From Sulfobacillus thermosulfidooxidans DSM 9293 (lineage in GTDB: Bacteria; Bacillota; Sulfobacillia; Sulfobacillales; Sulfobacillaceae): a DNA stretch of 64,000 nt. The stretch is from the NCBI RefSeq assembly GCF_900176145.1, contig NZ_FWWY01000001.1, forward strand, positions 1,225,819-1,289,818, given 5' to 3'. The position numbers and the translations under genes were made by a program. Below, piece after piece: positions 25,709-47,969 of the stretch. Under the pieces are notes generated by a model that was given only the letters and a program-made list of their open reading frames with translations, searched no databases and was not told where the DNA came from. Numbering within the stretch: position 1 is the stretch's first letter; every line of letters begins with the position of its first letter.

Positions 25709-25756
25709 ATGGAAGACGTATCGCTAATGAGGTGGGTTATGTGCCAGCATGGATAG
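25709..25756 (+). CDS. Possible 15-residue leader peptide
   Basis: ATG with AAGGAG seven bases upstream and TAG at 25754. It overlaps the start of the DUF342 gene in another frame, so translation of one could feed the other. No homology can be judged. Confidence 0.3.
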   Translation: MEDVSLMRWVMCQHG

Positions 25757-26718
25757 CACGAATTCGGGACACGGTGAAAAATATGGTCCGGGGATTTCAT
25801 ACGTCATTACACCAGGTGAGTCATCTCGCCGGATTTTTGCCTGGGCGCCACGAGGCATCGGGACGGATTTGGATTGATGACGATGGTCATGTCCACGTGC
25901 AAAATCCCCGCGCACTCCATGGACTATATCCTGTCATCCTGGTTCCGCCCGCGGAAAGTGGGATTACTGTCGAAGTCAATGGACAAAAGGCCAGAGGGAA
26001 TGAAATCGTTGTGCAAGCCTCAGATCAGATTGTGATTGACACCATTCCCCAGCCACCCCTTTCCCGTTTCGACGTCCATGTCGATGACGCGGGCATGTCC
26101 GCCGTATTGACCGTAGAATATCGTATGGGACTGACTCGTCTGATTGAATCCACGGAGCCCGCAACCCGTCTGGTTATTCCGGTAAAAACTCAGATGGAAT
26201 CTCCTCGACCTATCACCGTAGAGGAGGTCCTTAGCGAGTTAAATCGTATAGGCATTCACAACGATCGTGTGGATTATGCAGCACTCCTGGATTTTGTCAA
26301 TCGACAAAAGTCAGGTTCGGTCACTGTGGCTCTAGGCATTCCGGCCGTTTCCGGCACCAGTGAATCCTATCAACCCTTGCCGCTAGAGACAAAGACTCGG
26401 TATTACCGGGGAGTGGCTGTTGATCGCCCAGAATTTGTAGAAATTGGCGAAATTATCGGGATTTTGGTTCCGGGTGAGGCTTCCCATCCCGGGATTACCG
26501 TGTGGGGTACGCCTATTCTCCCCACTCCTCCTCCTCCCAATATGTTTAAACTTGGTGATGGTGTCGAGATGATGGAACGTGGGATGCACTTGGTGGCGAC
26601 CCGTAGCGGTCGGGTTCGGTGGGAACCTGGCAGTGTGCGGGTGATTCCTGAAAAAATCCATGTAGGCCCTGTGCGAAAGACATTGACCTACGATGGGGAT
26701 TTAATCATTGAAGGAGAC
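25741..26718 (+). pseudogene. DUF342/FapA-like protein, 5' part (split by IS110)
   Basis: 326 codons from GTG 25741 (GAGG at 25730). A basic N-terminus is followed by a FapA N-terminal-like region (~30-120) and the start of the beta-helical DUF342 domain (GDGVEMMERGMHLVATRSGRV, here cut to GDGVEMMERG and RSGRV; YDGDLIIEGD). At 26718 the IS110 element begins. Joining 26718 to 28256 gives IIEGD-VQGKVTV in frame and a 604-residue protein. Family: FapA-like polymers linked to flagella, cell surface or c-di-GMP-linked functions; exact role unknown. Confidence 0.85.
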
Positions 26719-26740
26719 ACCCATGCCCCGAATTCGGGGC

Positions 26741-26976
26741 ACCCACGGATATGAAAAAAGGGAGTGAGTTGCGCTATGCTGAAGACAGCCTTCGGCCGAG
26801 ATCGGTTTCTCTCTGATGCTGCGAGCTCGCGAAGGAGACGGAGTCCGGCCTCGTTGAGCACCCCCGATTGTTGCGCTCCGTCGGCTTGCGCCGACGGGTA
26901 GCACGCACAGGAGAATTCGTCAGCGCTCCGAGGCTGCCGGAGGCCTGATTATTCTACACGCGTTGAGGTGAGTCGC
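26741..26976 (+). ncRNA. Candidate bridge RNA of the IS110 element
   Basis: Non-coding, GC-rich and able to fold: CCGTCGGC-TTGC-GCCGACGG (26878-26897) is a perfect stem-loop, and CTCCG/CGGAG forms another near 26926-26942. It holds GAAGGAGACG (26831-26840), identical over 10 bases to the rebuilt target (26710-26718 joined to 28256). It also holds CACAGGAGA (26906-26914), identical to the element's right end at 28246-28254. In IS110 systems (established for IS621) a bridge RNA has one loop that reads the target and one that reads the donor, both containing the core. The right-side guides were not found by eye. Ends of the RNA are unknown. Confidence 0.65.
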
Positions 26977-28212
26977 ATGGACTTAGAGGTTGTGGTCACT
27001 CATGGCGCCGGGTTGGACGTCCACAAGAAGGTCATTGTCGCCACGGTGTTGACGCCGACGGTGAACGAGACGCGGTCGTTTGGCACCCTCACCCCCGATC
27101 TCTTGGCGTTAGCGGATTGGCTCCAATCCTGTGGGGTCACGCACGTGGCGATGGAAGCGACCGGAGTGTATTGGAAGCCCGTGGTCAACTTGTTGGAGGC
27201 GTATCCCTTTGAGGCCGTAATGGTCGTCAATCCCCAGCACATTAAGGGCATGCCGGGGCGGAAGACCGACGTGCAGGACTCGCAGTGGATTGCCGGGTTG
27301 CTCCGGATTGGCGCGTTGAAGGCCAGCTATATTCCGCCGCGTCCGCAGCGGGAGCTGCGGGAGATCGTGCGCTATCGGACGAGCCTACAGCAAGCCCGCG
27401 CCACGGAAGCCAACCGGATCCAAAAGGTGTTGGAAGGGGCTAATGTCAAACTCGGGAGCGTCATCAGCGATGTGTTGGGCGTTACCGGCCAGCGGATTCT
27501 CGCCGCCTTGGCGGACGGCGAGACCGACCCGACGGCTCTGGCCGATTTGGCCGATCCCCGGATCCGCGCCTCCCGGGACACCCTGATCCAGGCCTTGACC
27601 GGCTTGGTGACGGCCCATCAGCGCTTGATGCTCCGCGTACAGCTCCAGCATGTGGCCTTTTTGGATCGCCAGATTGCGGCGCTGTCGGAGGAAATCGCCA
27701 CGCGCCTCGAAAATTTTGACGACGCCCTCGCCCGCTTGCAAACCATCCCTGGGGTCGAGCGTCGTACCGCCGAGATCATTATCGCCGAGATTGGGACCGA
27801 TTTGCAACGGTTCCCGTCCGCCGGGCATCTGGTCTCCTGGGCCGGCTTCAGCCCCGGACAGCACGAGAGTGCGGGGAAAGCCCGACCGACGCGCACCCGC
27901 AAGGGCAGTAAAGCGCTGCGGGCCGCCTTGACCCAAAGTGGCCACGCCGCCGGCAAGACCCGGACCTATCTGGGGGCGGTGTATCACCGCCTCGCCGGCC
28001 GCCGCGGGAAGCAACGCGCGGCTGTGGCGACGGGACGCCACATCTTGATCGCGGTGTATGCGATCTTGCGGACCCCGGGGGCTGTCTACGAAGATTTGGG
28101 CGCTACCTATTTTGATCAGCGGGATCGGCAGGCCCTGGTCCGCCGGGAAATTCGCCGGCTCGAAGCCTTGGGTTATCGGGTGCGGGTGGAGCCGACCTCG
28201 CAGGCGGGCTAA
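26977..28212 (+). CDS. IS110-family transposase (RuvC-like recombinase)
   Basis: 411 residues from ATG 26977 (GAGGTGA five bases upstream). N-terminal RuvC-like DEDD domain: GLDVHKK (Asp ~14), MEATGVYW (Glu), GRKTDVQDSQW (Asp). A central coiled helix follows. The C-terminal Tnp domain has IPGVERRTAEIIIAEIG and SAGHLVSWAGFSPG with the conserved catalytic Ser. Length and motifs are complete, so it is probably active. Known chemistry: RNA-guided recombination through a circular form. The upstream candidate bridge RNA lies directly before it. Confidence 0.94.
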   Translation: MDLEVVVTHGAGLDVHKKVIVATVLTPTVNETRSFGTLTPDLLALADWLQSCGVTHVAMEATGVYWKPVVNLLEAYPFEAVMVVNPQHIKGMPGRKTDVQDSQWIAGLLRIGALKASYIPPRPQRELREIVRYRTSLQQARATEANRIQKVLEGANVKLGSVISDVLGVTGQRILAALADGETDPTALADLADPRIRASRDTLIQALTGLVTAHQRLMLRVQLQHVAFLDRQIAALSEEIATRLENFDDALARLQTIPGVERRTAEIIIAEIGTDLQRFPSAGHLVSWAGFSPGQHESAGKARPTRTRKGSKALRAALTQSGHAAGKTRTYLGAVYHRLAGRRGKQRAAVATGRHILIAVYAILRTPGAVYEDLGATYFDQRDRQALVRREIRRLEALGYRVRVEPTSQAG

Positions 28213-28255
28213 CACTACCGGCGGTGCTCACCGGAATCTATTTTTCACAGGAGAC

Positions 28256-29092
28256 GTCCAAGGAAAAGTTACGGTTGTGGCTTCTGGACAGATCATCGTC
28301 ACGGGATCGGTGATGAATGCGGAAATTGTGGCCAAGGAACAAGTCTGGATTTTTGGCGAAACGCAAGGAACCGTCATCTATTCAGGTCATAAGGCGGTGG
28401 GTGATCAGGATGTCCAGCAACAATTGCGCCGATTAAATGAAGTTTTATGGATATTGGAGCACGGTTACCACCAAGTGTGTGAACGGATGCCTGAGACCCC
28501 GGTTGTGCCGGGTAAAATTTTTGCATGGCTGGTTCAAACAAAATTTCCGGAATGGCGCTCATTGGTCCAGTGGTTAGAGAAAATGCGGTCGCGTTCTCCC
28601 TACCGAAAAAATCCGGATCTCCGCCTGTTGGTCGAAGACATTTTGCCTTTGATTGAGCGAGAGCAATTGTTTCACATTCAGGATGTTACCCTGCTCGAGC
28701 GTATTCATGAAGGCATTCAGCACTATATGGATGCAGCTCAGCACTCGGAGCAAGGTGAACAGCTATCCGGGGTATATTTGAAAGTCGCTGTTCACACGAT
28801 GATTCGCAGTTTAGGATCTGTCACGCTGCAAGACGCGCGCTTATGCGACATTGAATCGGGTGAGTCCGTGGATATCAGTGGGCAAATGATTGGGGGCAAT
28901 ATCACGGCGCAAGAGAGCATAACCGCGCGTATTTTGGGCTCAGAAGAAGGGATTGATACCTTGGTTTCGGTTGTAAATCCTAATGGGTGGATTCGCAGTC
29001 ATGTGATATACCCGCAGACCGTAGTGCAAATTGGCACCTATACGGAAGATTTCACTACAGCTATGACGGATGTTGTGATCGACCAAGTGTGA
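28256..29092 (+). pseudogene. DUF342/FapA-like protein, 3' part
   Basis: 278 residues continuing the split gene: the rest of the beta-helix (VQGKVTVVASGQIIVTGSV, then AKEQVWIFGETQGTVIYSG), a helical segment (~95-190) and a final beta-rich section (VTLQDARLCDIESGESVDIS). It is followed by a terminator hairpin. It has no ribosome site of its own. Confidence 0.85.
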
Positions 29093-47605: not shown

Positions 47606-47654
47606 GTAGAGTAAGAGACAGGACGTCGTCGTGCGATTTTCCTGCCTCTCCTCT

Positions 47655-47690
47655 CCGAACCGGACGTGCACCTCTCAGCGCATCCGGCTC
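47655..47690 (-). ncRNA. Group II intron domain V
   Basis: Minus strand: GAGCCGGATGCGCTGAGAGG then TGCACGTCCGGTTCGG, which pair as the catalytic domain V hairpin (GAGCCG..CGGTTC ends). It matches the well-known bacterial consensus closely. Position 49 bases before the intron's 3' end is as expected. Confidence 0.9.
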
Positions 47691-47969
47691 TCCATTTACG
47701 TGTCGCTCAAAGCGAAAGCTACATCAGCATAGCGGGATTCATGCGAGTGGACAGTGGGGTTGGCTGGTGCACGCAGATAGGGATTTCCCATCGGCGTATG
47801 CCAGAGAAAACGACCTTTGGTGGTCGTCACCAGACGTTGGAGGGCTATCGTCACATAGTGCCCCTCACTGTTACGGAGAATGCCCCATTTTTCGTGGAAA
47901 TTGAAACTAGCGATCCTGATGGCTCTCTGGTTTACTAGAGAGGTCTGATCCATCATAAGGAGGAATCGC

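Follow-up and report, generated by a model that had tools for sequence, protein, structure and literature searches.

The window, a 64,000-nucleotide stretch of the Sulfobacillus thermosulfidooxidans DSM 9293 genome, contains an IS110-family element of 1,537 bp, with limits at 26717 and 28253 that were set by comparison of copies and relatives. The element lies within a FapA-like gene:

25732–26716, forward strand: 5′ part of the interrupted FapA-like gene (PF20250; empty site)
26710–26716, forward strand: left target GAAGGAG, including the core AG (26715–26716), at the left junction; matches the guide at 26831–26837
26717–28253, forward strand: IS110-family element, 1,537 bp, within the FapA-like gene (identical second copy; same-genus empty site; comparison of copies)
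26752–26758, forward strand: TGAAAAA, left copy of the subterminal inverted repeat, the other copy, TTTTTCA, being at 28241–28247 (match between the left and right ends)
26968–28212, forward strand: IS110 recombinase, 414 amino acids (Pfam PF01548 and PF02371; NCBIfam NF033542; alignment to IS621)
28252–28255, forward strand: right core AG (28252–28253) and start of the right target (AC...) (right junction; empty site)
28254–29092, forward strand: 3′ part of the interrupted FapA-like gene (PF03961; empty site)

When the flanks are rejoined, GAAGGAG to ACGTCC (...ATTGAAGGAG/ACGTCCAAGG..., the slash marking the junction), they form an open frame of 607 codons, which aligns without gaps to an uninterrupted orthologue in a genome of the same genus (80% over 313 bp). 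Given the gapless alignment and the open frame, the sequence shows an exact insertion with no net duplication beyond the shared core, as is the case for IS110 elements, which insert at a short shared core without net target duplication. The limits in an earlier note on this DNA were two bases off, though the target rebuilt from them is unchanged; the copies place the ends at 26717 and 28253 around an AG core. A second, identical copy is found in the same genome (L002, G000:C1:2144531–2146066), where the site, ACAAAGAG, is imperfect and matches the guide at 5 of 8 positions; this insertion is an off-target case. The subterminal inverted repeat covaries between the two ends throughout the family, the 7-nt match between an element's own left and right ends being exact in 25 of 62, as against 6% when the ends of other elements are used.

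The recombinase matches PF01548 (E 7e-28), PF02371 (E 5e-19) and the NCBIfam model for the IS110 family RNA-guided transposase, NF033542 (264 bits, cut-off 140). Alignment to the structure entry of IS621 shows that the catalytic D, E, D, D and S positions are conserved, so that the protein has both the DEDD RuvC-like domain and the Transposase_20 domain with the catalytic serine that characterise the family. PMC11187229 gives a length of 330–350 amino acids for IS1111 recombinases and of 395–455 for the subgroup to which IS110 itself belongs; at 414 amino acids the protein falls in the latter range and outside the former.

Upstream of the recombinase we predict a guide RNA of the bridge RNA (seekRNA) kind:

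26775–26780, forward strand: −10-like box, here TATGCT and mostly TATGAT in close relatives (conserved in most of them)
26786–26945, forward strand: predicted bridge RNA (seekRNA), ends approximate (comparative alignment, covarying helices, guides)
26789–26796, forward strand: 5′ strand of the closing helix P1, opposite 26936–26943 (paired in 16 of 16 close relatives, two-sided change)
26807–26812, forward strand: region of the putative right target guide, in the target loop on its 5′ side (covariation in relatives)
26831–26837, forward strand: putative left target guide GAAGGAG, ending in the core AG (own versus foreign guide matches, positional profile)
26838–26839, forward strand: AC, a handshake-like dinucleotide that repeats the start of the element, 26717–26718 (agreement in relatives)
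26847–26853, forward strand: donor-loop stem, 5′ strand, pairs with 26929–26935 (16 of 16 relatives)
26906–26913, forward strand: putative left donor guide CACAGGAG (identical to the right end, 28246–28253)
26929–26935, forward strand: donor-loop stem, 3′ strand, pairs with 26847–26853 (covariation)
26936–26943, forward strand: P1, 3′ strand, pairs with 26789–26796 (same pairing test)

The −10-like box would have a promoter role, with the RNA probably starting shortly downstream. The earlier note had drawn attention to two strings in the upstream region, GAAGGAGACG at 26831–26840, matching the rebuilt target, and CACAGGAGA at 26906–26914, matching the right end of the element, and had judged chance matches improbable. 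Both strings are present, and in 5,000 dinucleotide shuffles of 26741–26976 GAAGGAGACG arose in 0.04%, CACAGGAGA in 0.06% and the two together never; GAAGGAGAC was seen in 0.26%.

The main evidence comes from the relatives. Copies were gathered both within the taxonomic family and across many other phyla, and 95 upstream regions were aligned; in around 90 relatives the guide follows the insertion site. The best match of an element's own target guide to its left junction region covered 8 or more of 10 positions in 58 of 88 elements, compared with about 4% when the guides of other elements were used. Since related sequences are not independent, one element was also taken per distinct guide (n = 57): here the exact 7-mer occurred in the element's own left junction region for 28 of the 57 (0.41% for foreign guides), and the mean guide match of 8.02 was never reached in 10,000 permutations, the maximum of which was 6.12. 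Counting outwards from the core, guide and left flank agree in 100, 100, 97, 97, 93, 93 and 79% of elements and thereafter in 21–29%, a profile of which the edge rather than the height is informative as the elements had been pre-selected at 6 or more matches of 8. The guide does therefore match the target, as had been proposed, but over 7 nt and not 10.

The earlier note would have counted it against the idea if relatives at other targets kept the same guide; in fact they carry other guides, which match those targets. L180 and L189 have ACACGAG at CACACGAG, and further guides at unrelated targets are GAATAG (L191), AGGGTAG (L190), CCCTAG (L168) and CTGACCAG (L173). In one genome (G020) four near-identical copies with the guide CAAAGGAG occupy four different sites, all ending in AAAGGAG, and a fifth, which shares the guide GAAGGAG with the window, occupies the site GGGAAGGAG; judged by their sequences, these copies amount to a natural retargeting experiment. 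The target guide thus covaries with the target, as expected of a bridge RNA.

The second guide expected of such an RNA, one that covaries with the end of the element, is also seen. In the window CACAGGAG occurs at both 26906–26913 and 28246–28253, and the donor guide matched the element's own right end at 7 or more of 8 positions in 77 of 87 elements, against 12% for the guides of other elements. An unbiased scan of the relatives, at all offsets and in both senses, gave no convincing signal for a right donor guide.

The upstream region had been described as strongly foldable; its fold energy, however, is that of shuffled sequences of equal composition (z 0.28). Nor does the region match a bridge RNA family in Rfam at gathering scores. 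RNAalifold gave only a weak consensus structure across distant relatives, and the helices were therefore tested directly. The donor-loop stem is paired in all 16 relatives of the window clade, with two-sided changes and three pair types at 26851–26931, and it covaries in distant relatives too. The earlier note had held that guide matches lying in stems rather than loops would speak against guides. In a single-sequence fold of the window the target guide is indeed paired with the opposite side of its loop; the consensus built from 63 distant relatives leaves it unpaired and places it in a loop, on the 3′ side. Pairing in the single fold is to be expected, because both sides of the loop carry bases matching the core, and does not refute the guide. 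We take the comparative evidence to outweigh the single fold, on which this check would have misfired.

The two bases after the target guide are AC in the window and mostly TT or TC elsewhere. Their agreement with the target is near chance (27–28%), whereas they agree with the two bases at the element's start in 85–91% against 39–53% expected, and this holds in distant relatives alone. By coincidence AC is also the start of the right flank in the window, which had made the match there look 10 nt long. In IS621 the bases of the target-loop guide past the core pair with the incoming donor strand and are termed handshake guides (PMC11208158); the arrangement here fits one of this type. No signal for a second handshake, between the donor loop and the right target, was seen in the relatives.

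The right-hand guides had escaped the earlier note, and of these the target one can now be placed at about 26807–26812, though the donor one was not found. In relatives an unbiased scan at all offsets and in both senses had its best hits around 31 nt before the core of the left guide (z 4.4). The right target guide would consist of 4 nt and the core complement CU (26811–26812) and pair with the top strand of the right target; its signal in relatives is z 4.4–5.4, with p ≤ 0.0002 when anchored on CU, and examples are GGAUGU-CU at AG/ACATCG (L097) and AAGUCG-CU at AG/CGACGA (L101). Column-wise covariation on the raw alignment missed this guide, and re-anchoring near the loop recovered it. In the window only one of the four bases at 26807–26812 pairs with the right target, and the guide pairs poorly at the sites of both copies, so that the right side probably adds little specificity there. 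Guides for both target strands are therefore seen, the left one strong and the right one significant in relatives and weak in the window.

Taken together, we are confident that the element is an IS110 element with a bridge RNA (seekRNA) made by its left end. One loop of this RNA would carry the target guide and the second a guide identical to the right end of the element, both left guides ending in the AG core that target and donor have in common. By analogy with IS621 and ISEc21, the recombinase would bind the RNA, join the target and a circular donor, cut at the core and exchange the strands. Because the bases after the core equal the first two of the element, the guide could keep pairing with the incoming donor strand after the exchange, as in a handshake. 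Expression of the RNA, its complex with the protein and the strand exchange would likewise follow from this analogy.

An RNA of this kind can be weighed against a recombinase that itself reads GGAGA at both ends, the two GGAGA strings of the RNA then being incidental features of a purine-rich, Shine-Dalgarno-like sequence. GGAG is indeed common to the target, both ends and both guides in all close relatives, so that in the window clade conserved core accounts for much of the match. Outside the clade, however, the guides are ACACGAG, GAATAG, CCCTAG, TTGAGAG and others, five variable positions follow the target (93–97% at −3 to −6 and 79% at −7) and foreign guides match far less. This tracking of target by guide refutes a protein-read core for the subgroup, and we consider it very improbable overall. 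Even less credible is that the segment regulates the recombinase mRNA as a leader or attenuator, the matches being target sequence captured in a past transposition. The RNA does lie directly upstream of the recombinase start and a captured flank could in principle give a 10-nt match, but in the alignment of about 90 elements the guides fall in the same columns, between conserved blocks and beside covarying helices, and the donor loop has a matching guide of its own.

The bridge RNA reading leaves the question of which known RNA it resembles. The earlier note had ascribed to it the layout of IS621. As in IS621 (PMC11208160, PMC11208158), the RNA lies at the left end with the target loop before the donor loop, an order the note had right; the guides include a dinucleotide core, handshake bases follow the core and the recombinase is of the DEDD and serine type. 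The target loop itself departs from that layout: the bottom-strand guide is 5′ in the loop and the top-strand guide 3′ in IS621, whereas in the window's RNA the top-strand guide comes first, on the 5′ side, and the bottom-strand one follows on the 3′ side. Also unlike IS621, the core on the coding strand is AG rather than CT, the longer and better-matched guide is the 3′ one, and an outer helix, P1, closes the layout in the window clade; the recombinase has 414 amino acids compared with about 326. The ISEc21 seekRNA is similar in lying in an upstream non-coding region and matching both target strands, but its guide order, as described in PMC11187229, is that of IS621 and hence the reverse of the window's. 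The order found here is thus the reverse of the IS110-type (IS621/ISEc21) layout. This kind of RNA is already known, and as read from sequence its guides here would run opposite to those of the best-studied example.

According to PMC11187229, it is the IS1111 RNAs (ISEc11, ISPa11, ISKpn4) that have the reverse order, with the top-strand match 5′ of the bottom-strand one, and IS1111 elements also have subterminal inverted repeats. Both features would suit an IS1111-group member that happens to carry its RNA upstream. However, the RNA in IS1111 lies downstream of the recombinase and the repeats are 7–17 bp, whereas here the RNA is upstream, the repeat is short (about 5–8 bp) and the protein has the length of the IS110-containing subgroup; membership of IS1111 is therefore unlikely. 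It is fairly probable, though by no means certain, that the long-recombinase IS110 branch (395–455 amino acids) has a mirror-image bridge RNA, which would lie upstream but follow the guide order of IS1111, with AG as its core and with handshake bases beside the left-target guide.

If so, guide polarity and RNA location would be independent traits, which would argue against a simple picture of the RNA merely switching ends at the split between IS110 and IS1111. Sequence-level proof of RNA-guided insertion now extends to an IS110 branch distinct from the ones that hold IS621 and ISEc21, and guides in the branch can be read by a rule, five variable bases and AG, then two bases from the element's own end. 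Such a rule makes natural targets predictable and suggests new recombinases for testing with a loop polarity unlike that of IS621. Published guide predictions cover six more elements, ISPpu10, ISAar29 and ISHne5 among them (PMC11208160, Extended Data Fig. 10c). In the text of published papers we found no account of an upstream RNA with IS1111 guide order. ISArsp3 (the ISfinder name), on the Glutamicibacter plasmid pQL1, is a named element of the branch and has the same design, with a recombinase 42% identical to that in the window and an upstream RNA in which, at corresponding positions, AAGTGAG/TTT matches the left junction and a donor guide matches the right end; it differs in having another target, which is not Shine-Dalgarno-like.

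The guides of the window clade spell AAGGAG, the Shine-Dalgarno sequence, and thus a target found before many bacterial genes. A start codon 4–12 nt past GGAG and opening a frame of at least 50 codons was present in 18 of 36 distinct right flanks, compared with 14% of random positions; for the full set of AAAGGAG sites in these sequences the figure was 47% (27/58). An extra preference for true start sites was rejected on this comparison; the preference follows from the guide and is no additional property. As the right end itself ends in AGGAG, the downstream gene would keep a ribosome-binding-like sequence. In the window the Shine-Dalgarno-like string was hit inside a coding sequence. A search of the available literature on targeting of Shine-Dalgarno sequences or ribosome-binding sites by IS110 found nothing relevant.

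Elsewhere in the same genome a solitary 42-bp remnant of the right end (L003, G000:C1:1365224–1365265), 83% identical, has GAATACCATG directly behind it, with a reading frame that is still open where the fetched locus ends; this appears to be a decayed insertion at a ribosome-binding site. Three elements of Burkholderiales (L111, L116 and L123, from Paraburkholderia, Caballeronia and Burkholderia) occupy one conserved site right before a start codon, CTTGAGAG/AATGGAGCYATGAACAAG, which their guide, TTGAGAG, matches.

Six genomes (G010, G011, G012, G017, G031 and G032) contain 23 distinct mini-elements of 127–210 bp, mostly 135–147 bp, that consist of only the left and right ends of this IS110 and lack both the recombinase and the guide RNA. 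They include L196, L198, L213, L215, L223, L231, L293, L294, L296, L298, L304, L305 and L308, among others, and their sites end in GGAG, with AGAG instead in a few copies. These MITE-like elements presumably owe their movement to the bridge RNA acting in trans. L223, L196, L057 and L255 are tandem insertions at the right end of another copy (CASAGGAG), where the element's own end serves as the target. At least 15 further distant IS110-family matches, with 31–34% identity, are found in the genome of the window (L006–L020), and the window itself has an Rfam match to a group II intron (RF00029, 63 bits) at 47606–47692 on the reverse strand.
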